NCBI RefSeq assembly: GCF_021922985.1
Contig: NZ_CP040788.1
Span: 1,550,001-1,614,000, forward strand
Origin: Clavibacter michiganensis subsp. tessellarius
Lineage (GTDB): Bacteria; Actinomycetota; Actinomycetes; Actinomycetales; Microbacteriaceae
Length of the DNA stretch: 64,000 nt
Direction of reading: 5' to 3'
The notes beneath the pieces were generated by a model. The model was not told where the DNA came from. It was given only the letters and a program-made list of their open reading frames with translations, and did not search any database. The stretch's first letter is position 1, and each line of letters starts with the position of its first letter. The position numbers were made by a program, and so were the translations under genes. Shown here piece after piece: positions 1-49,231 of the stretch.

Positions 1-2766
1 GGCCTGCAACGCGCCGCCGGGCCGCCTCCCCGAGGCGGCGAGCGCGACACCCGCGTGCGGGCCCTCGCGGACCAGGGCCGCGACCAGGTCGAGGAGGGCC
101 GCCTGGTGGTCGGGTCCGAGGCGGGAGACGGCGACGTCGAGGTCGTCGGCGAGCACGACCAGCGGCGCCGGCCGCGGGCCCGGCCGGCGGATGCGCGCGA
201 CGACGTCCGCGAACGCGTCCCAGCACCCCTCGGGATCGCTCGGGATGCGTCGCACGCGGACACCTCCGGCCCCGGCCGACGCCGCGAGCGCGCCCAGGCA
301 GGAGCTGCGTCCGGACCCCGGCCCGCCGAGGACGAGCAGGTGCCCGTCGGTCGCGGGCCGCCACGTCGCGACCGCGCGGCGCTGCTCGGCGGGCAGGTCG
401 ACGAGCGCGAACGGCAGGGCCACGGCACGGCCGTCGTCCGTGGACGGGGATGCGGACGGCGATGCCGACGGGGACGTGGAAGGCGATGCGGACGGGGATG
501 CGGACGGCGATGCGGACGGCGCCGACCCGAGCGGCGGGAGGCCCGCGAGCGCGGCGAGCGGGACGGCCGCGGGGAGCGGGTCCAGCCACGGACGGCGGAC
601 GGGCCGCCGCGGCATGCGCTCGGCGGCGATGCGCGCGAGGTCGTCGGCCGTGGTGACGGCGACCTGGAAGGGGCGCGCGGGTCCGCCGTGGGCGCCCAGG
701 AGGCAGCGGCCGACCGGGACGGCGGGAAGGTGCGCCGCGTCGGGCACGCCGAGGAGCGCGCGGCTGTCGGCCTCGTTGTTGACGCGGAGCGACAGGCGGA
801 GGTCGCAGTTGGCGAGGACGGCGTCGCGGACGACGCCGGCCGGGCGCTGCGTGCACAGGACGAGGTGCATGCCGAGCGACCGGCCGCGGGCCGCGATGTC
901 GGAGACCACCTCGTGCAGGCCGTCCTGGTCGGCGAGGAGCGCGGCCAGCTCGTCGACGACGATGACGAGCCGGGGCAGGACGCCGGCGGCGCGCGGGTCG
1001 TCGACGTCCCGGGCCCCGGCCTGGCGCAGGGTGCGCTCGCGGTGGCGGATCTCCGCCCGCAGGCTCTCGAGGGCGCGGCGCGCGCCGTGGCCGTCGAGGT
1101 CGGTGACCAGCCCCACGGCGTGCGGGAGGACGAGGAGCGGGTCGAAGGCGGCGCCGCCCTTGAAGTCGACGAGGAGGACCGTGACGTCCTCGGGCGGATG
1201 CGCGGCCGCGAGCGCGGCCATCCACGTGACGAGGAGCTCGCTCTTGCCGCTGCCCGTCGTGCCCGCGACGACGGCGTGCGGGCCGTCCGCCACGAGGTCG
1301 ACGACGACGGGGCCGTCGTGCCCGACGCCGACGGCGGCCGCGAGTCCGGATCGAGGACGGGACGACGCGAGGAACCCGGCGGCGGGGCCCGCGAGGGTGA
1401 GGTCCGTGGCGGGGAGGTCCGTGGCGGTGAGGTCGGAGGCGGGGAGGTCCGCGACGGTGAGGTCCGTGGCGGGGAGGCCGGAGGCGGCGGCACCCACGGC
1501 GGTCGCGACCTCCGCGAACGGGACGCGCGCGGGCAGGGGTGCCCGGGCCGAGTCGAGGCCGCGCCGGCGGGCGAGGGCGGCGAGCTCGTCGGCGAAGCGC
1601 GACGCCTCCGAGAGGGAGACGAGCTCGGGCCGGACGAGGCCGGCACGGACGACGGCGGCGGATGCGGCAGACGGCTCGTCCCCGTCCGGGGCGGGCACCC
1701 CGGCACCGGCTTGTGCCGCGACCGCCGCATCGGGCGCCGGCGCGGGCGGTCCGGCGGGATGCCCTGTGCCGAACTCGGCCGCCGCGTCCACCGCGAGGAG
1801 GAGCGCCGTGCCGGGGCCGCGCAGGTCGAGCACCGTGCGGCACGCGGCGGGCAGCGACTCCACCCGCGACGCGGCCGCCAGGACGACGGGGCGGCCGCGG
1901 AGTGTCAGGTGCATGGCGACGGCATCCTCGTCCGGACCCCGACGGGCGGGCGCGAGGACGGGGGCGGGGACGCCGGGAGCGTCGCGGGAGGAGTGCGGCA
2001 GGCGGTCGAGCCACGCCCACTCCGCGCCCGGCGGCCGCCCGTCGATGCGGAGGTCGTCCGGCGGCAGGGCGTGCACCAGCTGCACGATCGCGCCACGGAG
2101 CACGGGGGCGACGAGGGCGGCGGGGCCGCGGAGGCCGAGCCCGCCCGCGGAGGAGGCGAGGACGGGCGCGTCGGGGATCCAGCGGACGTGCTCCGCCCAA
2201 CGCACCGGATCCGCGGGAGCCGACCGCCCGACCGGGCGCGGGCCGGACCCGCGGAGACGGGCCACCAGGCGCGCGGGAGCGAGCCCGCGGGCGCCCGGGA
2301 GCGGCTCGGCGGGGAGCGCGGCATGCGCCTCGCCCCGCCAGACGAGGCCGCTCGGGACCGCTCCGGATCCGACGACGAGCGGCGGCGCGGGCCCGTCGGG
2401 ACCCGGCTGGGCCCGCCACAGCAGGGCGGGGTTCGCCCGCCCGTCGAGGATGTCGCGGGCGGACGGCGCCCGGGCGAGGAGCGACCGGCGCGCGGCGCAG
2501 AGGCGCGCCGCCACCTCCTCCCGCAGCCGCAGGAGGGCGACGGCGCGCTCGCGGGCGGCCCGGCGCCGCGTGCGCCGCCCGGAGATGCGCTGGTCGGCCA
2601 CGCCCGCGACCGCGACGACGGGGCCGAGGGCGGCGAACAGCAGGGCATAGGGCGACCGGGTGACGGCCCACACCGCGACGCTGACGACGAGGGGAGCCGC
2701 CACGCCGAGCACCGGGAACGGGGGCGGCGGGGCGGGCGGCGGCGAGGGCGGCGGGGCGATGTCCAC
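1..2766 (-). CDS. FtsK/SpoIIIE (EccC-like) secretion ATPase, 3' end beyond window
   Basis: Open from a GTG at 2766 to the window edge, so at least 922 residues and C-terminally incomplete. Two hydrophobic segments lie near the N-terminus (about residues 17-55) after a proline-rich start. A first FtsK-type ATPase domain has Walker A GTTGSGKSE at 502-510 and Walker B LVIVVDELAALL near 600. A second, more degenerate nucleotide-binding domain has GGPGSGRSS near 814 and LVVLADDLDV near 870. Two membrane helices followed by tandem FtsK domains is the layout of EccC-type motors of type VII secretion; a chromosome-partitioning FtsK would carry a gamma DNA-binding domain, which cannot be judged here. 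The gene lies 116 nt downstream of the transglutaminase-like gene on the same strand. No better start is visible upstream in frame. Two low-complexity repeat tracts lie within it. Substrate is unknown. Confidence 0.8.
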   Translation of the reverse strand, partial: MDIAPPPSPPPAPPPPFPVLGVAAPLVVSVAVWAVTRSPYALLFAALGPVVAVAGVADQRISGRRTRRRAARERAVALLRLREEVAARLCAARRSLLARAPSARDILDGRANPALLWRAQPGPDGPAPPLVVGSGAVPSGLVWRGEAHAALPAEPLPGARGLAPARLVARLRGSGPRPVGRSAPADPVRWAEHVRWIPDAPVLASSAGGLGLRGPAALVAPVLRGAIVQLVHALPPDDLRIDGRPPGAEWAWLDRLPHSSRDAPGVPAPVLAPARRGPDEDAVAMHLTLRGRPVVLAAASRVESLPAACRTVLDLRGPGTALLLAVDAAAEFGTGHPAGPPAPAPDAAVAAQAGAGVPAPDGDEPSAASAAVVRAGLVRPELVSLSEASRFADELAALARRRGLDSARAPLPARVPFAEVATAVGAAASGLPATDLTVADLPASDLTATDLPATDLTLAGPAAGFLASSRPRSGLAAAVGVGHDGPVVVDLVADGPHAVVAGTTGSGKSELLVTWMAALAAAHPPEDVTVLLVDFKGGAAFDPLLVLPHAVGLVTDLDGHGARRALESLRAEIRHRERTLRQAGARDVDDPRAAGVLPRLVIVVDELAALLADQDGLHEVVSDIAARGRSLGMHLVLCTQRPAGVVRDAVLANCDLRLSLRVNNEADSRALLGVPDAAHLPAVPVGRCLLGAHGGPARPFQVAVTTADDLARIAAERMPRRPVRRPWLDPLPAAVPLAALAGLPPLGSAPSASPSASPSASPSTSPSASPSASPSTDDGRAVALPFALVDLPAEQRRAVATWRPATDGHLLVLGGPGSGRSSCLGALAASAGAGGVRVRRIPSDPEGCWDAFADVVARIRRPGPRPAPLVVLADDLDVAVSRLGPDHQAALLDLVAALVREGPHAGVALAASGRRPGGALQA
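443..521 (-). repeat. Short tandem repeat encoding a Ser-Ala-Ser-Pro linker
   Basis: A 6/12-bp unit close to gatgcggacggc is iterated on the plus strand. Read on the minus strand it encodes repeated (S-A/T-S-P) units at about residues 748-774 of the EccC-like ATPase, between its first and second nucleotide-binding domains. Such tracts vary in length by slippage. Confidence 0.75.
1397..1487 (-). repeat. 15-bp tandem repeat encoding a pentapeptide linker
   Basis: About six imperfect copies of a 15-bp unit (gaggtccgtggcggg on the plus strand) encode (P/T)-(A/V)-(T/S/A)-D-L pentapeptides. They lie at about residues 427-456 of the EccC-like ATPase, shortly before its first Walker A motif. Confidence 0.7.
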
Positions 2767-2882
2767 GCGGACAGGGCACCACGGCGGGGCGACGCCCGCG
2801 GGCGGCGGGGACGACGACGTGGAGGGATCCGCCGGGACCCGCCTGGGGAGGGCGCGACGCCCGCCCGACCGCCCGCCCGCCG

Positions 2883-5402
2883 TCAGCGCTCCGAGCGCGT
2901 GCCTCCCGCACCGCCCGACCCACGACGCCCGCCCGACCCGCGACGCCCGAGCACCCCGCGCCCCTCGCGCGCCACGCCCCGCCCGATCCGCAGCGACGCC
3001 GTCGAGACGAGCGCGCGCAGCCGCTGCCGCCGGGTGCGTCCGGCGTCCATCCGCGTCGCCAGCTCGTCCGCGCGGCGCCAGGCGGCGTCGGCGAGCGGAT
3101 CGGGCACCTCGCCGGGCGCGAAGACGGACTCGTCCGCGACCTCCGCGAGGCCGCGCGCGCCGCCCACGCCCGCCAGCCGGGCGACCTCGCGGCGCGTCGC
3201 GGCGACGGGCGGCACCAGCCCGCGGTCGAGCGCGCCGTCGCGGAACTCGTCCCAGGCGCCGGCCACGCGGTCCCGCGCGACGGGCGCGCGCCGCCGTCGC
3301 CGACGCCGACGGACCTTGGCGCCCACTATCGCGAGGAACGGCGAGGCCGCGAGCCCCAGCGCGAGGAGCGACCAGCCCGCGACCCGCACGGCGGCGAGCA
3401 CGGCCTGGAGCGTCGGATCCGCCTCCGGCCGGTCGTCGCGGCTCGTGTCCGGCGGCGTGCGGTCGTCGGGCTCGGCCTGCTCCTCGACGGGCGGCGGCAG
3501 GACGGTCTGCGGGCGCGCGACCTCGGTCGGCTCGTCGGGCAGGGCGTCGGGCACGTCGCGGACGGGCGGGTTCGGATCCACCGCGACCCAGCCGGAGGAC
3601 GCCGTGTCGACCTCGATCCAGGCCGTGACGTCGGATCCGGTGACCGCCACGGGCCCGCCCGCCGCCTCCCGCACGGCCGCCTCGCCGGGCGCGAAGCCCA
3701 GGACGACGCGCACCGGGAAGCCGAGGTCGTCGGCGAGGAGCGCTGCCGCGACCGCGTACTGCTCCGCGTCGCCGAGCATCGGCTGCGCGGTGAGGAGATC
3801 GGCGATGCGCTCGGCGGAGTGCCCCGAGCGGCTGAAGGGCGCGTCGCCGACGCCGTGGCTGACGTAGCCGTCGGCGCGGAGGGCGGAGATCGCGGCGACG
3901 AGCTGGGCGCCCGGGGACGAGGAGGTGCCGACGCCCGCGTCCGCGCCGCCCGCGGTGGACCCGTCCGGCGCCGCGGTGGACGCGTCGACGCGCTCGCCCA
4001 CCGCGTCGGGCACGCCCGTCGGCCGCGGGGCCACGGCGTCGCCCGGCCGCTCGTCGGCGAGGGCCTCGAGCGGCGGGGTCGCGGGGACGACCGCCTCGAT
4101 CCGGTACGCGTCGCCCTCCGCGAGCCCGCCGACGACGGCGCCCGTGGCGATCGCGTCGTCGTAGTAGAAGGAGTCGGCGAGGCGGCCGGAGCCCGGGCCG
4201 TCGAAGCCGATGCGCTCGAGTCGGCCCGCGCCCGGCAGCCACACGCCGCGGTACGAGCCGATGACGACGTCGAGCGCGACGTCGTCGCCCGTCGCGCCCC
4301 ACTGGTCGAGCCGGTACGGCACGCGCGCGAAGGTGCCGGACGCCTGGCCGGTGCGAGACGCGTCGCCGCCGCGCGCGCCGCCGACCCCGTAGACGACGCC
4401 GTCGTACGTGTCGAGCGCGGCCAGCCGGATCCGCCCGCCCGCGGGCAGGCCGGACACCGTGAGTAGCGTCGCGTCGACGGCCGGCTCCTTCCAGTAGGTG
4501 CGGAACGCGGAGAGGGGGCTGATCTGGTCGCGCGGGTCGAAGGGCTGCTCGACGGCGGAGCGGAGGCCCGTGCGCGCGACCTCGGGCGGCAGGGCGTGCG
4601 CGGCGGCGACGCCCGCGACGAGCGCGACGCCGAGCACGGCCACGGCCGACGCCCCGGCGCGCGTGCCCGAGCGGCGGCGGTCGGCGGCCGACTCGAGCGG
4701 CACGCCGGATCCGCGACCAAGGCGCTGCACGGCGCGGTGCCGGCGGCGCCAGCGGCAGCGGGCGATCCAGAGCAGGGCCGTCGCGAGCCAGGCGAGCGCG
4801 ACCGGGACGAGGAGGCCCGAGGCGTCGGGCGCGTCCGGGCCCTGGCTGCGGTCGGGGCCGAGCGCGGCGCCCACGACGAGGACGACGAGCGAGGGGATCA
4901 CCGCGAGCTCGGGACGACGGGAGCGCAGCGCCACGGTGGGGCCGATGACCGCGGCGAGCAGCAGGAGCGCGAAGGCCGGCACGAGGAGCGCCTGGTAGTC
5001 GCCGACCGGCAGCGCGATCGTGAGGAGCCGCACGATCCCGAGGGACGCGCCCTCCACGAGGTCCGCGAGCCCGTCGAGCGTGGGGCGCCAGCCGTCGACG
5101 GCGCGCGTGGGCACCGCGAGCGGGACGCCGAGGAGGAGGAACAGCGCCAGGACGACGCCCGCGACCACCGCGCTCCCCCAGCGGAGGCGCGCGCCCGCGA
5201 CGGCGGCGGCGGCGCCGACGACGATCGTGATCCCGGCCATCCGCAGGAACGACGCGTCCTGGTGCACGGGCCAGAAGGCGGCCGCGCCGAGGCCCGTGAG
5301 GAGGGCGAGCGCGAGCACGGGGACGAGGGTGCGGCCGGGGTCGCGGGATCCGGCGGGGACGCGGGGGCGGCGGGAGCCGGCGGCGGGCCCGGCCCCGCTC
5401 AC
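2883..5402 (-). CDS. Membrane transglutaminase-like protein lacking the catalytic Cys and His
   Basis: 839 residues. The GTG start overlaps the stop of the DUF58 gene by 4 bp (GTGA). The N-terminal 210 residues hold about six membrane helices; then comes a cytoplasmic linker, another helix near 250, a large extracytoplasmic part, a helix near 690 and a basic cytoplasmic tail. The transglutaminase-core (TgpA-type) domain lies at about 500-615. The motif that normally reads G-x-C-E-x-x-A reads GDAEQYA with Ala546 at the Cys position. The H-A-W-V-E-V motif reads TAWIEV with Thr593 at the His position. The Asp motif WVAVDPNP is kept. I infer a structural or binding role rather than cross-linking or protease activity. 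DUF58-transglutaminase pairs beside MoxR ATPases are a known bacterial arrangement. Confidence 0.85.
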   Translation of the reverse strand: MSGAGPAAGSRRPRVPAGSRDPGRTLVPVLALALLTGLGAAAFWPVHQDASFLRMAGITIVVGAAAAVAGARLRWGSAVVAGVVLALFLLLGVPLAVPTRAVDGWRPTLDGLADLVEGASLGIVRLLTIALPVGDYQALLVPAFALLLLAAVIGPTVALRSRRPELAVIPSLVVLVVGAALGPDRSQGPDAPDASGLLVPVALAWLATALLWIARCRWRRRHRAVQRLGRGSGVPLESAADRRRSGTRAGASAVAVLGVALVAGVAAAHALPPEVARTGLRSAVEQPFDPRDQISPLSAFRTYWKEPAVDATLLTVSGLPAGGRIRLAALDTYDGVVYGVGGARGGDASRTGQASGTFARVPYRLDQWGATGDDVALDVVIGSYRGVWLPGAGRLERIGFDGPGSGRLADSFYYDDAIATGAVVGGLAEGDAYRIEAVVPATPPLEALADERPGDAVAPRPTGVPDAVGERVDASTAAPDGSTAGGADAGVGTSSSPGAQLVAAISALRADGYVSHGVGDAPFSRSGHSAERIADLLTAQPMLGDAEQYAVAAALLADDLGFPVRVVLGFAPGEAAVREAAGGPVAVTGSDVTAWIEVDTASSGWVAVDPNPPVRDVPDALPDEPTEVARPQTVLPPPVEEQAEPDDRTPPDTSRDDRPEADPTLQAVLAAVRVAGWSLLALGLAASPFLAIVGAKVRRRRRRRRAPVARDRVAGAWDEFRDGALDRGLVPPVAATRREVARLAGVGGARGLAEVADESVFAPGEVPDPLADAAWRRADELATRMDAGRTRRQRLRALVSTASLRIGRGVAREGRGVLGRRGSGGRRGSGGAGGTRSER

Positions 5403-7003
5403 GACCCGCTCCGCTGCAGGGCGCCGCGCAGGTCGTCGAGGTAGCCGATGGTGAGCACCGTGAGGTCGCCGAGGCGTCGGAGGCCGGGCTCGGCCTCGGG
5501 ATCGCACACGACGGCGACCACCTGCACGCCGGGCGGGAAGCCCACGGCGGCGTGACGGATCGACGCGGACGACGCTCCCGTGCCGCAGACGAGGAAGACG
5601 ACGGAGACGCCCGCGACCTCGTCCGCCGCGGCGCGCGCGACCTCGACGAGGGACGCCGCGAGGTCGGTCGCGCGGATCTCCGCCAGGTCGTCGAGGAGGC
5701 GCGTGGGCGTGACGGTCGCGAGGCGGCGGAGGCGCGGCGGGCGGGGTCCGGCCGGGCGCGGGCGCGGGCGCGGTCCCGGCACATCGCGGACGGCCCCGGT
5801 CGCCGTCGGCGCGGCGGGCGCGCGGCCCGCCCGCGCGCGCCCGGAGCCGCCCCCGGATCCGCCCCCGGCCCCGCGGTCCGCGCTCGCGACCACCGACACC
5901 GAGCGGGCGTCGACGATGGCGCGCGCGCCGAGGGATCCGACGACGCTCACGGCCAGCTCGAACTCGGCGTCGGCGGTGGATACGGCGAGCGCGCCGTCCG
6001 CGCGCCCGGCGGCCACGGTCGTGCCGCCCGCGGGGCCGGCCGCGACCGGATCCGAGGCCGTGCCCGCGCCGGTCGCCTCCCGCTCCGGGTCCCCGGCCCC
6101 GTAGTCCGCCGCGTGCAGCGACAGCGCGACCATGATGTGGCTCCGCCGCGTCTCCTCGAACCGCCGCACCATGTGCACGCCGGTCTTCGCGGTCGACCGC
6201 CAGTGGATGTGCCGCATCTCGTCGCCCGGCACGTACTCGCGCAGCGATTGGAAGGACACGTCGCTGTCGGTGAGGTCGCGCGTCGCCCGGCCCTCGAGGT
6301 CGCGCACGAAGCCCGTGCTGGTGCTCGGCATGGCGAGGGTGCGCGGGTGCACGAGGAGGCGGGTCGCGCGGGCCTCCGTGGACTCGCGGCGGACGAGCCC
6401 GAGCGGGTCGCCGCGCACGATGCGCGCGGGGCCGAGGGAGATGACGCCGCGGCGCACGGTGGGCACGACGAAGACGTCCTCGTGCGCGTGGCCGTGGCCG
6501 AGGGAGGGGACGTGGATCTCGGCGAGGCCGGATCCCACGGGCACCTCGACCGTGAGGCCCACGGCACGGCGGCGCAGCGGGTTCCGCACGGAGACCGTGG
6601 CGGGCGCGCGCTCCCCCGCGACGACGCGGTCGCGCGGGAGGCGCAGCGCGACCTCGACGCCCGCGGATCCGACGAGGTGCAGCACCGCGAGCACCCCGAG
6701 CGCGACGGCCGTCCACGCGACGGCGACGAGCTCGCGCCAGCCGAGCGCGTACCCGGCGGCGCCCGCCGCCACGGCCGCGAGCGCGACGACGCGACCGAGC
6801 GGCGTGACGACGCCGACGAGCCGCCGGAGCGCGTTCCGGGGCGGCGCGGCGACGGCCTGCGGGTCGTCCCCCGCCGAGGTGGACGGGGAGGCGGCGGGCG
6901 TCGGCGGCGCGCCGGCCGCGGGACCGGCGGGGACCCGCATGGGGTCGGGTCCGCCCCCGGGAGCCGCGCCGGCGGGGCCGCCGGCGTCGGCGACCGCGCT
7001 CAT
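5399..7003 (-). CDS. DUF58 domain protein
   Basis: 534 residues. The ATG overlaps the moxR stop by 4 bp (ATGA). After a proline/alanine-rich N-terminus, two membrane helices (about 60-110) are followed by a beta-rich region and the DUF58 signature REYVPGDEMRHIHWRSTAKT at about 275-295. The C-terminal part carries a long Gly/Arg/Pro-rich insertion and a Rossmann-like end that may be a degenerate von Willebrand A fold. DUF58 proteins occur beside MoxR ATPases across bacteria and are thought to be partners of the AAA+ machine; the biochemical role is not settled. Position between moxR and the transglutaminase-like gene is the typical order. Confidence 0.88.
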   Translation of the reverse strand: MSAVADAGGPAGAAPGGGPDPMRVPAGPAAGAPPTPAASPSTSAGDDPQAVAAPPRNALRRLVGVVTPLGRVVALAAVAAGAAGYALGWRELVAVAWTAVALGVLAVLHLVGSAGVEVALRLPRDRVVAGERAPATVSVRNPLRRRAVGLTVEVPVGSGLAEIHVPSLGHGHAHEDVFVVPTVRRGVISLGPARIVRGDPLGLVRRESTEARATRLLVHPRTLAMPSTSTGFVRDLEGRATRDLTDSDVSFQSLREYVPGDEMRHIHWRSTAKTGVHMVRRFEETRRSHIMVALSLHAADYGAGDPEREATGAGTASDPVAAGPAGGTTVAAGRADGALAVSTADAEFELAVSVVGSLGARAIVDARSVSVVASADRGAGGGSGGGSGRARAGRAPAAPTATGAVRDVPGPRPRPRPAGPRPPRLRRLATVTPTRLLDDLAEIRATDLAASLVEVARAAADEVAGVSVVFLVCGTGASSASIRHAAVGFPPGVQVVAVVCDPEAEPGLRRLGDLTVLTIGYLDDLRGALQRSGS

Positions 7004-8157
7004 CCCGCGTGGCGCGCGCCGGCGCCGCCCAGGCCGGGAGCGCCGCCCGAGCCGGCACCGCCCGAGCCGGCGCCGCCCGAGGCGTCCGCGCCCGCGTCGC
7101 CCGCGAACGGCGCCCCCGCGTACCGGTCCCGCGGCGGCGCGGTCTCGATGAGGATCTGCGACAGCACGCTCGTGGCCGTGACCCCGTCGAACTCGGCCTC
7201 GGGATCCAGCAGCAGGCGGTGCGCGAGCACGGGCTCGGCGAGGGCCTTCACGTCGTCGGGCACCACGTAGTGCCGGCCGTCCGCCGCGGCCCAGGTGCGG
7301 GCGGCGCGCAGGAGGGCGAGGGCGCCGCGCACGCTCGCGCCGAGCCGCACCTCGGGCGCCTGGCGCGTGGCGTCGACGAGGCGCACCACGTAGTCGGCGA
7401 CCGCGGGATCCACGTGCACGGTGCCCGCGCGCCCCTGCAGCGCGCGCACGGACGCGGCCGTGGCGACGGGCGCGAGCGTCACGTCGTGGGCGCTGACCGA
7501 GGCGCCCTGCAGGATCCTGAGCATCGACTCGTGGTCCGGGTACCCGATGGAGGTGCGCAGCAGGAACCGGTCGAGCTGCGCCTCGGGCAGCGCGTAGGTG
7601 CCCGCCTGCTCGATCGGGTTCTGGGTCGCGATGACCATGAACGGGTCGCCCACGTCGTGGGGCGTGCCGTCGACCGTGACGCGGCCCTCCTCCATCACCT
7701 CGAGGAGCGCGGACTGGGTCTTGGGGCTCGCGCGGTTGATCTCGTCGGCCAGCACGATGCTCGCGAACACGGGCCCGCGGTGGAACTCGAACTCGCCCGT
7801 GCGCTGGTCGTAGACGCTGACGCCCGTGATGTCGCCCGGCAGCACGTCGGGCGTGAACTGCACGCGGCTGTGCGTGCCGTCGACGGTCTGCGCCATGGCG
7901 CGCGCGAGCGACGTCTTGCCGGTGCCGGGCACGTCCTCGAGCAGGAGATGCCCGCCCGTCACCATCGCCGTGAACGCGAGCCGCACCACGTGCGACTTCC
8001 CGAGCAGCACCTGCTCCACGTTGCGCACGAGCGCGGCGAACTCGTCCTGGAAGGCGCGGGCCTCGTCGGCGGTCATCGTCATGGGGGCGTGCCTCTCGGG
8101 TGCGGACGCGGGGCCGGATGCGGTCCCGGGCGCGGGGGCCGCGGGGTCGGCCGTCAT
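7000..8157 (-). CDS. MoxR-family AAA+ ATPase
   Basis: 385 residues from the ATG at 8157, which overlaps the stop of the large surface-protein gene by 4 bp. An internal ATG at 8082 would give a 360-residue form. Walker A is LLEDVPGTGKTSLA near 72-85, Walker B is LADEINRA near 135-142, and the sensor/arginine region ATQNPIEQAGTYALPEAQLD is typical of MoxR. The C-terminus is a Gly/Ala-rich tail of about 30 residues. MoxR proteins are chaperone-like ATPases that assemble or activate partner complexes; the adjacent DUF58 and transglutaminase-like proteins are the expected partners. Confidence 0.93.
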   Translation of the reverse strand: MTADPAAPAPGTASGPASAPERHAPMTMTADEARAFQDEFAALVRNVEQVLLGKSHVVRLAFTAMVTGGHLLLEDVPGTGKTSLARAMAQTVDGTHSRVQFTPDVLPGDITGVSVYDQRTGEFEFHRGPVFASIVLADEINRASPKTQSALLEVMEEGRVTVDGTPHDVGDPFMVIATQNPIEQAGTYALPEAQLDRFLLRTSIGYPDHESMLRILQGASVSAHDVTLAPVATAASVRALQGRAGTVHVDPAVADYVVRLVDATRQAPEVRLGASVRGALALLRAARTWAAADGRHYVVPDDVKALAEPVLAHRLLLDPEAEFDGVTATSVLSQILIETAPPRDRYAGAPFAGDAGADASGGAGSGGAGSGGAPGLGGAGARHAG

Positions 8158-11100
8158 CCGCGGTGGGCGTACGTGTACAGGGTGCCCGAGTTCGCGGTGA
8201 CCCGCACCTCGAGGATCCGCTCCGCGCCGGCCGGCAGGGCGCAGGATCCGGCCGCGCCGGAGGAGCCGTCCGTCCACGCGCCCTCGCCGCCGCAGCGCCA
8301 CTCGCTCCGGGCGTAGCCGCCGCCGGCCGCGACGCGCCGGCCGGGACCCGCGGCGGGCGGCGTCGAGGTCCAGGAGACGACCGTGCCGCCGGCAGCATCC
8401 GCGTCGAAGCGCACGTCGCCGGCGCGCGCGTCGACCGCCGTGCCGACGTCCACCGCGTCCGACCAGCCGCTCGAGCGCGGCCGGCCGTCGCCGTGGTCCT
8501 CGACGACGCGCACCTGGATGCTCGCGCCGACGCCCGGGCGCGGCAGCGTGATCTCCTGGCCGACCCCGATCGGCACCCCGTCGCCCTGCCCGTCGACCCG
8601 GTACAGCAGCTGCGCCGAGGCGGACGCGCTGCCCGGCCGGTAGCGCGCGTCGGCGAGCGTCGCGCGGAAGACGCCGTCGGTCCCCCGGTCGCCGCGCGGG
8701 AGCGAGACGGTGACGGCGGGCGTGGAGGGCGCCGTGCGCGGCGTGAGCTGGCCGGCCTCGACGACCGTGCAGCCCTGGCTGTTGGCGGCGAGCACCGCGA
8801 AGGCCACGGGCTGATCGGGCGCGAGGCCCGTGAAGACGTGGCTGGTGGCGCCGCCCACGTCGACCGCGGGGCCGTGGTCGGCCGACCACGGCGTCACGCC
8901 CTCGGTGGCGACGGAGCAGCCGGGCGCGGACCCGGGGGCGTGCGCGGCGACGAGGTAGCGGATGCCGTCGACGCCCGGCCCCTGGAAGGCCGGCCACGAG
9001 ACCGTCACGCGCGTCTCGTCCGCCGGGTCGGCGACCGCGGAGGGCGTGCCGGTCGCGGTGGGCGCGCCGCGCGGCGTGCCCGTGATCGAGGCGGCGAGCC
9101 ACGCGGATCCGTCCTGCACCTGGGCGCTGTTGCGGGCGGCGACGCTCACGGCGACGGGCACCTCGGCGACGAGCGACGGATCCCGCACCTCGACCGCCGT
9201 GGCGTCGGCGGGCACCTGCCGGGTGACGCCGCCGACCGTCACGACGTACTGCGTGACCGGGCTCGAGGAGGACGGCACGGCCGACGGGTCCCACGACACG
9301 CGCAGGCCGTCGGCGAGCGGCTGCGCGGCGAGGGCGGCCGGGGCGGCGGGCAGCACGTCCGACCAGAGGCCGGAGACCGACGTCGGATCCGACGCGCCCA
9401 CGCCGTTGACGGCCCGCACCTCGACCTGCACCGCGGACGACGGGCCGTTGCCGGGCGTCGGCACGGTGCACGTGGTGGACGGGCAGGTGGCGGTCGCGGT
9501 GACGACGCCGCCGCGGAGGACGCGCACCTGGTAGCCGGTGATCGGGGATCCGTTGAACACGCCCGGCTCGAACGCGACCGTGAGCGCGCGGTCGGCGAAG
9601 CCCGTGGCGCGGAGGGCGGTGACGGGCCCCGGGCGGTCCTGCACGTGGATCACGACGGTGCCGAACGCCGCCCGGCCCGCGTCGCCCGTGGCGTCGCGCA
9701 CCTCGTACTGCACGCGCACGTCGCCCGGCACGGCGTCGGCGGTCGCGGCGACCGCGAGGGTCGCCCGGTCGGCCGACGGCGTCACCGTCACGCCCGCGGG
9801 GAGGCTCGCGCCGTCGGCGCCGCGGATGGACGCGACGGTGAGCGGCGTGCCGGGGAAGGGGTTGCCCGCCTGGTCGTTCGCGAGCACGTCGACGGTGGTG
9901 GAGGATCCGCGCGTCACGGTGCCCTCGTCGGTCGCCGGCTGGGCGAGCGGCCGCGTCGACGGCACGACCCGCAGGTCCACCCGGCCCGCGCGCCCGGTCT
10001 GCGTCGCGTCGCGCACGCTCACGGCGAAGGACGCGGCGACGCCCGTCTCCACGCCCGCGTCGGCGGAGAGGCGCAACGTGCCGCCGTCCACCTCCGCGCG
10101 GAAGCCGTCGCCCACGGCGCCCTCGATCGCGTACGCGAGCTGCCCGCGGTCGTCCTGGTAGGGGTAGGTCGTGAGGCGGCCGAGGTCGATGTCCTTCGAC
10201 TGCCCGGGCTCGAGGTCGATGACCGCGCCCGTGAAGACGGGCGGCTGGTTCTCGGTGGGCGTGACCGTGATCGGCAGCACGAGCGCGGCCGTGCGATCGC
10301 CGCCGTCGCCCGCGGAGTCGGTGACCGTGAAGGAGATCGCGGCCGGGCCGAAGTACCCGGGCTCGCTGCGGTACGCGACGGTGTCGTCGTCGACGAGCTC
10401 GACGGGTCCGTCGGCGTGCGTGGCGGAGAGCGAGTTGGGGTCGGCGATGCGCACGGCCCGGCCGCCCGCGGCCACCACGTGGTCGTCGAGGTCGACGACG
10501 AGCCGCTCGCCGCTCGCGACGGTCGGGCGGGGCTCGCCCACGCGGAGCTGCGGCAGCGTGTCCTCGAAGCCCGGCACCCAGATGAAGGCCGTCGCGCTGA
10601 CGCCCGCGTCGTCCGGCTGCGCCACCGTGAACGGCACGATGCGGCGCGCGTCGCCGACCTCCACGCGGATCCGGCCGTCGGGCGTCACGCGCGCCACGTC
10701 CTGGTAGCCCGCGCCGACGGAGAGCACGAGCGCCGACGCGTCGCCCTCCGCCGAGAAGACGTTGCGCATCACGTCGACGTCGACGCTCGTGCGGTCGAGC
10801 ACGTCGGAGAGCTGGAGCACGGTGTCGCGCGCGATCGGGCGCGTGGGCGGCGCGGCCGGATCCACGATGACCGTGAGGAACGCCTCGTCCGTGCCGCCGC
10901 GCGCGTTCCGCACGCCGTAGACGAAGCCGTAGCGTCCGGCCTCCTCGGGCGCGACGACGCGCACGGTGTCGCCGTCGAGTCCCGCGACGAGGCCCGCGGA
11001 CTGCGGCTGCACGGAGACGAGCGAGAGCGCGCCGCCGTCGGGATCCGTGTCGTTCGCGAGCACCTGCACGCGGAGGACCCGGCCGGGCCGCACGGTCACG

Positions 11101-14100
11101 ACGTCGGCGGTCGCGACGGGGTTCCGCGCGCCCTCCACGCGCGGGCTGATGCCCACGCGGATCGTGCCGGTCGCTCGGGCACCCAGCCCGTCCACCACGG
11201 CGTAGGCGAACGCGTCGGTGCCGGTGGAGTAGTCGCCGGCGCGGTAGTCGATCCAGTCGGGCCCGACCTCCGTGACCTGGCCCTTCTCCGGCCCGGTGTC
11301 CTGGCCGAGGAGGCGCACCGAGTCGCCGTCGGGGTCGATGCCCGTGAGCGGCACGGGGATCCGCACCGTCTCCCCCGCGAGCACGCGCGCCGTCAGCGGC
11401 CGCGGCACGGGCGCCGTGTTGGTCGCGGCGTCGGCCTCGCGCACCGAGACCGTGAGGGTCGCGGTCGCCCACTGGCCGTCGGGCGCGACCGCGCGGTAGA
11501 CGGCCGTGTAGTCGCCCGTGCGGTCGGGCGCGAGGTAGCGGAGGCGGTCGTCGCTCGCGAAGAGGAGGCCGGCGCCCTCGGGCAGCGGGTCCACGAGCAC
11601 GGGGTCGAGGCGGAGCGCGTCGCCGTCGGGCTGCTCGTCGTTGGCGAGCACGGGGATGTCGACGGCGTCGCCCACGCGCACGGCCACGCGGTCGTCGGCC
11701 GCGACGGGCGGCTGCCGCACGGCGGGCTCGGGCACCTCGATCACGGTGATGACGCCCGTCGCCTCCGCGACGCCGTTGCTCACCCGGTACCCCACGTCCA
11801 CGGGCCCGTCGAGCGGCCGGGTGAGCGTGATCCGCACGAGACGCTGCCCCACCACCTCCGCGCGCACGCCGACGGCGTCGCCCGGCGAGGTCGCGTCGGT
11901 GATCACGAGCACGCCGCCCGCGGGGTCGAAGTCGGTCTGGAGCACGTCCACGTCCTGCGCCTCGAGCGCGCGCACGAACACGGTGTGCGGCACGGTCACG
12001 GGCCGGCCGTCGGACTCGGGCGCGCCGCGCACCTCGACGCGCACGACGCCCGTCGCGGTGACCCGGCCGTCGGTCACGGCGTACTCGAGCAGGTGCGTGC
12101 CGGTCTGCGTGCCCTGCAGGCGGAAGGTGCCGGCCTCGAGGTCGGGCGTGACCTGCACCCCGGGGCGCGCGGGCACCGACGCCAGCCGGATCGCCCCGCT
12201 GCCGCCGCGCGCGTGCGCGAGCGGGTCCACCGTGATCTCGCGCCCGACCGACGCCTGCACCACGAAGCCCTCGGCCACGAGCGGGACGTCGCCCGCCCGG
12301 CGCACCGTGACGACGAGCGTGCCCGCGCCCTCCTCGCGCCCGTCGGACACCTGCAGCGCGACCGTGCGCGTGTCGCCCCCCGCGCCCGCGTCCGTGTAGA
12401 CGACGCGGCCCTCGGGCTTCCAGCTCACGGCGTCGGGCGCCGGGACGCTCGCGCGCGTGAGGTAGATCGGATCCCCGTCGGGGTCGTACCAGCCGCCCAG
12501 CACGTCGGTCTGCAGCCGGCCGCCCTCGGCGACCGTGCCGGTGGCCGGCCGCGTCTGCACGGGCGGCGAGTTGTCGTCCGCGTCGCGCACGGCGACCCGC
12601 ACGTCGGCGGTCGCGGTGCCGCCGCGGCCGTCGCTCACGACGTAGGAGAGGCGCACGGTGCCCCGGGCCGTCGGCGCGAGCGCGAGCTGGAGGCCCTGGC
12701 CCTCGTCCACGACGTCGACCGCGCCGACCGCGGCGTCCACGGGCGTGACGGAGTCGATCACGAGCACGTCGCCGTTCGGGTCGTGGTCGTTCAGGAGCAC
12801 GGGCAGCGGGCTCGTGCGGCCGGGCCGGGCGCCGAGGTCGTCGTCGACGGCGACGGGCGGCTGCTGCACGCGGTCGGTCTCGGGCGGGGTGTCGGCGGTG
12901 TTCTGCTCGACGACCCGGTCGGAGCGCTCGCGGTCGATGAGGTCCGACCAGTTGTCGATGACCCCGGCCCCGCGCTGCACGGCCCACGCGGCGCCGCCGC
13001 GCACGTCGTTGAGCACGACGCGCGGGCCGTCGACGAGGAACCGGAGCGCGGCCTGCGCGGACACGCCGGCGATGTCGGTGAGGGCGCCGGCCGGGGTGCG
13101 CCGGGCGTCGCCGCCCTCGGCGCCGGCGGACCCGGCGGACCCGGCGGTCGCGGTCGGCGCGGCGTCGAGGCAGCGCTGCCAGGAGGATCCGCCGGTCCAG
13201 CCCGCGAACTCGCAGCCGGCCACGCGCACGGGCCGCGCGGGCGCGCCGGACGCGCGGTCGGCGACGACGACCGGGTCGCCGCCCCCGACGGGCACCTGGA
13301 GGAGGCCGCCCGTGTGGGCCACGAGCACGGCGTCGCCCGCGGAGGACGCGCGCTGGAGGGCGACCTGCGCGTCGGCCGCGACGGATCCGCCGAGGTCGAC
13401 CGCGCGCCCGTCCACCAGGAGGGCGCGCGCGTCGGCGTCGTAGAGCGCCCAGTGGCCGTCGACCCCCGTGAGCGCGAGGCGGCGCGCGGCCGGGCGGCCC
13501 GCGACCCCGGCCTCGACGGTCTCGCCCGGGACGGCCGTGGCGGGATCCGCCGCGGGGTCGCCGCCCGCCTCCGCCGCCGGCGTGCCGACGGGTCCGACGG
13601 CCACCGTCTCCTCGACGGTGTCGTCGGTGGCCGCGCGGATGCGCGAGAGCGCGCCGGAGGTGGCCGAGTACACGAGCAGCGTGCCGTCGTCGTCCATGGA
13701 CGCGACCGCGTCGGCGCCGAGCGAGAGGGTGGGCGCGCTCATGGCGTCGAACGCCGCGAGGCCCGCGACGGGCACGAGCCAGAGCTGGCCGGTGGCCGGC
13801 ACGAGGATCGCCACGCGGGATCCCGCGAGCATCACCTCGGCGCCGGCGGGCAGCGGCGCCGTGTCGACGACCGCGCTCGTGGCGTCGTCCACCACGTCGA
13901 GGCGCGAGGCGCCGCGGTCGGCGAGCAGCACGGTGGATCCCGCCTGCAGCACGTCGATGTCCTCGCTGCGGGAGTCGACCACGCTGTCGAGCTCGAGCAC
14001 CTGCGTGTTGGCGCGGCCGATGGCCTGCTGCGCGGCGTTGACGACCCACACGGATCCGTCGTCGAGGTCGATGCGCTGGGCGTCGTAGCCGTCCGAGACG

Positions 14101-14188
14101 AGCGCGAAGCCCATGAGGAGCGCGAGCACGACGGCGCCGCCCGTCACGGTCGTCGCGGCCTGGCGGTGGCGGCGGATCCAGTCGCGGA

Positions 14189-14192
<4 letters not shown>
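8154..14192 (-). CDS. Giant membrane-anchored surface protein with Ig/cadherin-like and fibronectin-III repeats
   Basis: 2012 residues. The ATG overlaps the kinase stop by 4 bp. One N-terminal membrane helix at about 13-34 would leave the bulk outside the cell. Residues 35-440 look like a beta-propeller-like region (weak repeats). From about 450 to 1515 there are roughly eleven Ig/cadherin-like modules, several with the hallmark D-x-D-P-D-G-D or VLANDTDPDGG. From about 1516 to 2012 three to four fibronectin-III-like modules follow. Bifidobacteria carry a similar order of kinase, FN3 protein, AAA ATPase, DUF58 and transglutaminase genes (called the PFNA cluster), where the FN3 protein is a candidate adhesin or signal receptor. 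No sortase motif is seen. Ligand unknown. Confidence 0.88.
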
Positions 14193-15853
<1,661 letters not shown>

Positions 15854-49027: not shown

Positions 49028-49202
49028 ACTCCCCCTCTGTCATGTGCCTGAGAGCTTCGCGCCGTCCGAGGAGGGTGCTTTCACCGTGGGCGAGCCGTGC
49101 GGGACGACTGCTTTTCAGAGTGGCCAGTGCGTCGCGGTACGTGGACCTGAGAGATTGGCGGGGAGGCTTGCTCCTTCGGTGCTCCCGGAGGAGCTCTCCC
49201 GC
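49028..49202 (-). promoter_or_regulatory. Tandem glycine riboswitch upstream of gcvT
   Basis: Two glycine aptamers follow one another on the minus strand. The first runs from GGGAGAG (49200) through the AATCTCTCAGG core to the ACTCTGAAAAG linker. The second contains AGCTCTCAGG followed by ACAGAGGGGGAG ending near 49029. These are the conserved pieces of gcvT-type elements. The 3' end is about 40 nt from the gcvT start, so control of translation initiation or termination are both possible. Glycine binding would turn on gcvTHP. Confidence 0.93.
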
Positions 49203-49231
49203 GATGCGTGCGCGGCCGTGTTACGGGTCCC

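Follow-up and report, generated by a model that had tools for sequence, protein, structure and literature searches.

In the window, a 64,000-nucleotide stretch of DNA from Clavibacter michiganensis subsp. tessellarius (contig NZ_CP040788.1, positions 1,550,001 to 1,614,000), six genes on the minus strand encode a Ser/Thr protein kinase, a giant Ig/FN3 protein, a MoxR-type ATPase, a DUF58 protein, a transglutaminase-like (TG) protein and an FtsK-type ATPase (Table 1). We propose that this operon is a reduced, Clavibacter-type form of an envelope machine that is regulated by a kinase and akin to type VII secretion systems (T7SS), with T7SSd as its nearest described counterpart and with a gene set of the bifidobacterial PFNA kind as its envelope half; we consider the chances of this proposal to be about even. 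Translation of the minus strand bore out the original prediction that five genes are joined by four 4-bp overlaps, at 14189-14192 (kinase/giant), 8154-8157 (giant/MoxR), 7000-7003 (MoxR/DUF58) and 5399-5402 (DUF58/TG), and that an FtsK-type ATPase follows on the same strand: its gene is separated from the end of the TG gene by 116 bp, without overlap, and ends just outside the window. Pfam and NCBIfam agree with the names given to the operon proteins. The PFNA-like order that had been claimed was recovered as well, the five core families having the same order and strand as in the cluster when compared by families and order as published.

Against NCBIfam profiles the last protein scored 215 bits with EssC, 198 with EccCa, 141 with EccCb and 51 with FtsK, which upholds the type VII-like motor predicted here. 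Its best solved relatives are 4nh0 (3e-52), which we take to be EccC of Thermomonospora curvata, mycobacterial EccC5 and YukB. The protein has two transmembrane (TM) helices near its start, an intact first ATPase domain and a degenerate second one. All 34 aligned ATPases retain the first-domain Walker A Lys and Walker B Asp-Glu, and the Lys site of the second domain is occupied in the same alignment by Lys (18 sequences), Arg (13, including the window protein) or another residue (3). No FHA match was found in the window ATPase, and compared with full-length relatives the stretch ahead of the FHA part is also missing.

Linkage of the motor to the other genes was surveyed in 80 loci, the best among 433 stretches confirmed by tblastn; gene starts in these relatives were set by a simple rule, and overlaps other than the one described here were scored roughly. 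A TG gene lies upstream of the ATPase gene, on the same strand, in 51 of the 80 loci, spread over Clavibacter, Cryobacterium, Agromyces, Naasia and others. Between the two, 46 of these 51 loci carry a gene for a zinc-ribbon FHA protein (ZnFHA), and five do not (four Clavibacter loci and L063; L and G numbers designate loci and genomes). At the position of the window's 116-bp gap, the TG and ZnFHA genes overlap by 4 bp in 44 of the 46 loci and the order is retained, an arrangement that is beyond chance. One TG-bearing locus, L024, has 3.7 kb between its ZnFHA and ATPase genes. Residues Arg98, Ser122, Lys123, His125, Asn144 and Gly145 of ZnFHA are invariant, and we take them, from the FHA motif, to be the phosphothreonine site.

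A nine-gene unit, FHA-PP2C-kinase-giant-MoxR-DUF58-TG-ZnFHA-ATPase, was found in Cryobacterium psychrotolerans CGMCC 1.5382 (L202), in a Naasia metagenome-assembled genome (MAG; L203), in Agromyces albus DSM 15934 (L204) and in G033 (L201 together with L121). PP2C and FHA genes are present in L201-L204, L207 and L208, and the window operon is devoid of PP2C and of both FHA genes. Given the nine-gene unit of the relatives, the window therefore represents a reduced form. The closest DNA relatives of the locus are Clavibacter. The possibility that the ATPase gene is a free-standing unit was rejected on the grounds of the TG-ZnFHA overlaps, the retained order and the upstream TG gene in 51 of 80 loci.

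PFNA sets were also found next to type VII-like motors elsewhere in the order. We surveyed 49 genomes of the order; besides the host's own, 45 had an ATPase match, and 60 loci from 42 of these were examined. A PFNA set was present at 12 of the 60 loci. One (L121) is window-type, and the other 11 stand beside a longer EssC-like ATPase, L111 being from the same family and ten from other families; L107, with a weak same-strand triad (TG 76 bits), was excluded from the count. The longer EssC-like ATPases have open frames of at least 1481 residues, and an FHA domain was confirmed in both that were examined, L124 and L131. WXG100 genes lie downstream in 9 of the 11 loci (in G021 after intervening open reading frames, ORFs) and are absent in G017 and G036. 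In two Agreia genomes, too, a longer EssC-like ATPase adjoins the PFNA set and WXG100 genes lie downstream (2 of 2); A. bicolorata VKM Ac-1804 has this complete arrangement. A typical order, seen in G041 and G020, is giant-MoxR-DUF58-TG-FHA-PP2C-FHA-kinase-small gene-EssC-like-WXG100, and the kinase-giant-MoxR-DUF58-TG order of G021 is that of the window. In L124 (G035) the TG and EssC-like genes share a 4-bp overlap. Kinases of these loci, and of the second-type PFNA loci described below, score 213-401 bits against the window kinase profile (the other kinase of five Clavibacter loci scores 51-70 bits) and so belong to the same family as the window kinase. Of 28 sequences, 26 showed all three kinase motifs; in G021 and G058 the pattern search missed one each. 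By eye, about 100 residues ahead of FHA in L131:7617-12095 and L124:7775-12217 look ubiquitin-like; a ubiquitin-like component is said to be lacking in T7SSd.

In quick LG+G4 trees of the motors, the 27 window-type ATPases used formed one clade (support 100), in which TG and PP2C arrangements are intermixed. A single clade uniting the window-type ATPases with L111 was rejected (p 8e-6), as was one uniting them with the Agreia T7 ATPases (p 1e-6). PFNA therefore has links with at least two lineages of the ATPase; these may have arisen by repeated joining or by replacement in place. Single clades were compatible for the window-type ATPases with the main PFNA-linked T7 clade (p 0.256), and for the latter with the L111 group (p 0.627).

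The fifth protein had been called a pseudo-transglutaminase, rightly so. The window protein has Ala in place of the catalytic Cys and Thr in place of the His, with the Asp retained. Within the motif GD-x-EQ-[YF], the Cys site holds Ala, Gln, Gly, Glu or Ser in 52 of 52 family sequences, and the His site Ser, Gln or Thr in 51 of 51 that were readable there. Among the 120 listed of 619 homologues, Cys and His are each found in 0 of 120 and Asp in 120 of 120. A further 26 distinct sequences included none with the Cys, four with the His (G050, G036, G017, G053) and some without the Asp. An active transglutaminase was consequently rejected, no relative examined having the Cys and the His being likewise gone from the 120 listed. 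We conclude from the sequences examined here, a set to which the bifidobacterial ones are external, that the 'transglutaminase' of this gene set is a pseudoenzyme. Strong conservation without the catalytic residues points to a binding role.

A whole-genome search of the host detected a single WXG100 gene (G000:C1:1873813-1874103, with the match at C1:1873822; L086:9813-10103), unlinked to the operon and adjoining a groEL-type gene. Its product has a YxxxE tail motif. Two FtsK_SpoIIIE proteins are encoded in the host, the operon ATPase and a far higher-scoring one that is presumably, by its score, FtsK itself. With only this one other protein, the operon ATPase would be the sole candidate should a type VII motor export the WXG100 protein. 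In the genus, eight loci encode a near-identical WXG100 protein together with a groEL match of 98.6-99.8%, and a more distant WXG100 protein with YxxxE accompanies a groEL match of 68% in G015 (L093), from another family. This unlinked WXG100-groEL pairing, in the host genus and in G015, is that of a constant partner with no export locus nearby. The four FHA matches of the host genome all lie away from the operon, and a ZnFHA orthologue elsewhere in the host was not found, in a search of one genome without a positive control.

Comparison with known systems was based on PMC8430577, PMC6803598, PMC12067865 and PMC11217815. As described in PMC8430577, bifidobacterial PFNA consists of pkb2, fn3, aaa-atp, duf58 and tgm, with prpC, a hypothetical gene and fha added in some species, giving five to eight genes, none of them for an ATPase of EccC type, and its MoxR protein is a reported substrate of the PFNA kinase. 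Relatives of the window carry PP2C and FHA genes as some bifidobacteria carry prpC and fha. The differences are that the EccC-type ATPase belongs to the unit here, that PP2C/FHA (prpC/fha) genes are absent around the window operon, and that the TG protein lacks the catalytic Cys in every relative examined here. T7SSd of Olsenella and Bifidobacterium comprises TsdA, TsdC, TsdD, TsdH and TsdI (PMC11217815). Compared by this description, it shares with our system an EssC-type ATPase, a membrane kinase with intact motifs, a large Ig-like protein and a WXG100 gene in the genome. Unlike in T7SSd, the window ATPase has neither FHA (phosphothreonine motif) nor a third domain, FHA being a separate gene in relatives, the kinase has an outer part that looks FN3-like by eye rather than helical, and the WXG100 gene is away from the locus.

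T7SSb (EssC with FHA domains, EssB pseudokinase) resembles the window in having a motor and a kinase-fold membrane protein, as well as in the FHA domains found in the window's relatives, but the kinase motifs of the window are intact and no EssA, EssB or EsaA family match was obtained among the operon proteins scanned. MoxR-DUF58-transglutaminase triads (MRP subfamily) share the gene order. The host has such a second triad (L088:6453-11390; MoxR, DUF58, TgpA-like), but its transglutaminase keeps Cys and His, and tblastn with the kinase and the giant protein found nothing in the 16 kb around it. The words 'transglutaminase', 'DUF58' and 'MoxR' are absent from the available text of PMC11217815, and 'type VII', 'FtsK' and 'WXG' from those of PMC8430577 and PMC6803598; no paper joining PFNA and T7SS was found in the literature searched, in which few subscription papers and preprints were covered.

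The machine we propose could work as follows. From its sequence, the kinase would span the membrane once, with the kinase domain inside and the FN3-like domain outside, possibly as a sensor, and would phosphorylate partners. In the full relatives, which have the genes, FHA proteins would read this mark and PP2C would erase it; as PP2C and two FHA genes are gone in the window, the switch there would be simpler or would use FHA proteins encoded elsewhere. MoxR and DUF58, judging by their families, may remodel or load the membrane complex. The pseudo-TG protein, deprived of catalytic residues, would act as a scaffold in the membrane, its outer domain binding without cutting or crosslinking, and the giant protein, tethered by its N-terminal helix, would extend through the wall. 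The ATPase would power export, its likeliest client being the host's one WXG100 protein, encoded away from the operon.

Several results weigh against such a machine. The ATPase is of EccC/EssC type, but all its scores are below the curated EssC/EccC cut-offs of NCBIfam for full-length proteins, and a WXG100 gene is absent from the locus. A profile of its C-terminal part fits ATPase domain two of the full-length relatives best, so the window ATPase is, by its sequence, without their third motor domain, the one where mycobacterial-type substrates are read. The link between the WXG100 protein and the ATPase is one of absent alternatives, not of contact, and a four-sequence profile gave no WXG100 match among ORFs of at least 70 residues in the loci of all 80 relatives. 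In the order, the first-domain ATPase profile matches 46 of 49 genomes and WXG100 48 of 49 (G014 has neither; G024 and G044, both fragmented, have only WXG100), so that co-occurrence, being near universal, says little. Furthermore, the compatibility of the window-type ATPases with the main T7 clade means that the linkage to PFNA may be ancestral and not repeated.

The tie between motor and PFNA set is not obligate either. In 25 of the 80 loci, 23 of them with ZnFHA, the ATPase follows PP2C without a TG gene; of the remaining four, three are at contig ends and L052 carries ZnFHA, its kinase and giant genes being on the opposite strand. The pseudo-TG profile was searched in the genomes of 17 of the 29 loci that lack an upstream TG gene. 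Two (L010; L043, a MAG) had nothing above 50 bits, six had a close match (at least 189 bits, including the contig-end L007 and L028), three a second-type match (about 150 bits) and six a third-type match (71-77 bits). PFNA sets without an ATPase in view were seen at L205, L207 and L208, and in divergent, third-type form at L209, L210, L212 and L215. Among the seven second-type sets examined, four have no ATPase in view, two (Agreia) have the ATPase and WXG100, and one has an ATPase on the opposite strand. Of the original prediction, linkage of the motor to the set over many genera stands; an obligate tie does not.

The main rival reading is a PFNA-type operon for envelope signalling or surface maintenance, without secretion, whose ATPase has another job (moving some part of the wall or membrane, for example), its co-regulation stemming only from the shared kinase, FHA and phosphatase. 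It draws on the sets without an ATPase in view, on the lack of WXG100 matches in the loci of the 80 relatives, on the absent third domain and on bifidobacterial PFNA being described in PMC8430577 without an ATPase of this type. We nevertheless think it unlikely: in several families, as in Agreia, the set adjoins longer EssC-like ATPases and WXG100 genes, and the first-domain Walker residues are kept throughout the alignment. Less probable still is a neutral linkage, in which the ATPase would be a core gene of the order in its own right that came to lie beside PFNA in an ancestor of the Microbacteriaceae. Many other ATPase relatives do have a different setting, with WhiB- and histidine-kinase-like genes downstream (by eye), and the PP2C arrangement requires at least three changes within the window-type clade; however, the upstream TG gene recurs across Clavibacter, Cryobacterium, Agromyces, Naasia and others, 26 of the other 29 loci have PP2C or ZnFHA upstream and the last three are at contig ends, and a different ATPase lineage is joined to PFNA as well. 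A motor of FtsK or conjugation type that moves DNA and stands next to a surface operon, for which the FtsK_SpoIIIE domain could be invoked, is scarcely credible and a DNA-pumping FtsK was rejected, given an FtsK score far below those of EssC and EccCa, best solved relatives that are EccC and YukB, and the presence in the host of another protein that is presumably FtsK.

Beyond Clavibacter, we tentatively suggest that PFNA clusters, including the bifidobacterial one, could be the envelope half of a family of type VII secretion systems switched by kinase, phosphatase and FHA proteins, with MoxR, DUF58, the pseudo-TG scaffold and the giant tether as the outer part; the Microbacteriaceae form would be stripped, its motor having lost the FHA and third domains. 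If so, two bodies of literature, one on PFNA as a host-sensing operon (in bifidobacteria currently interpreted as an immune sensor) and one on T7SSc-j as new secretion types, would each be treating part of a single machine, without either referring to the other in the texts searched. The MoxR-DUF58-TG triad would gain a testable role, the 'transglutaminase' label of the gene set would be corrected, and Microbacteriaceae such as Agreia and Cryobacterium could serve as models for a type VII system that is phospho-switched and whose kinase is active.

Table 1. Genes and elements of the Clavibacter operon (window coordinates).
Feature	Position	Strand	Evidence or remark
Ser/Thr protein kinase, 554 aa	14189..15853	-	Pfam Pkinase 1.2e-36
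Giant Ig/FN3 protein, 2012 aa	8154..14192	-	Big_9 2e-64, fn3 1.3e-12
MoxR-type AAA+ ATPase, 385 aa	7000..8157	-	AAA_3 5.3e-62, AAA_lid_2 2.4e-25
DUF58 protein, 534 aa	5399..7003	-	PF01882 2.7e-9; two N-terminal TM helices by hydropathy
Polytopic TgpA_N / pseudo-transglutaminase (TG-like), 839 aa, GTG start	2883..5402	-	Transglut_core 1.9e-9, TgpA_N 1.8e-7
Pseudo-transglutaminase core (GDAEQY ... TAWIEV ... WVAVDPN)	3486..3902	-	alignment and residue counts
116-bp gap between TG and ATPase genes	2767..2882	-	ZnFHA gene here in 46/51 TG-bearing relatives
EccC/EssC-type FtsK ATPase, 1164 aa, GTG start 2766	1..2766, leaving window to -728 (G000:C1:1549272-1552766)	-	FtsK_SpoIIIE 2.6e-34

The kinase has the motifs VAVKV, HRDIKPAN and DFGI, a single TM helix (residues 433-451, by hydropathy) and, by eye, an FN3-like outer domain with a Cys pair, for which a Pfam search gave no match. 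In L209, L210, L212, L215 and L052 (some Cryobacterium, one Leifsonia), the PFNA-type kinase stops after the TM helix, without the FN3-like outer domain (by eye); kinases of this kind occur in genomes with a PP2C-type or unlinked ATPase. The giant protein starts with a TM helix (residues 14-32), followed by a region of about 400 residues without a Pfam match, Big_9 repeats and FN3 domains. Its N-terminal 450 residues matched no solved structure by sequence, and its N-terminal 460 residues had 428 homologues, of which the 120 listed are 1273-2029 aa long (median 1962).

A citrate synthase gene ends 167 bp upstream of the kinase gene, and convergent asparaginase and GABA-transaminase genes lie beyond the ATPase gene, which indicates that the unit ends with the latter. 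WXG100, EccD/EccB, FHA or PP2C genes, proposed as markers to look for downstream of position 1, did not appear there, the 8 + 4 further ORFs past the ATPase having none of these domains. Genome-wide searches for WXG100 and FHA placed none at the operon, EccB, EccD and PP2C having been searched only downstream of it. FHA and PP2C genes do belong to the unit in the nine-gene relatives, and WXG100 genes adjoin the PFNA set elsewhere in the order, but they do not follow in the window. Promoter and terminator scans gave no match, including in the 116-bp gap, with a consensus that fits high-GC actinobacteria poorly, and a PHROGs search returned only FtsK/SpoIIIE-like, terminase and unknown families.

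A second widespread group of EccC-like ATPases was seen in L101, L103-L105, L108-L110, L114-L119 and others, with WhiB- and histidine-kinase-like genes downstream at many loci and Tad-like genes upstream at some (by eye). About 6 kb past the ATPase, on the opposite strand, L004 has an extra Ser/Thr kinase gene (7707-9164, plus strand) to which PknB-type profiles are nearest. Finally, tandem glycine riboswitch aptamers at 49030-49211 on the minus strand are the sole Rfam match of the window.

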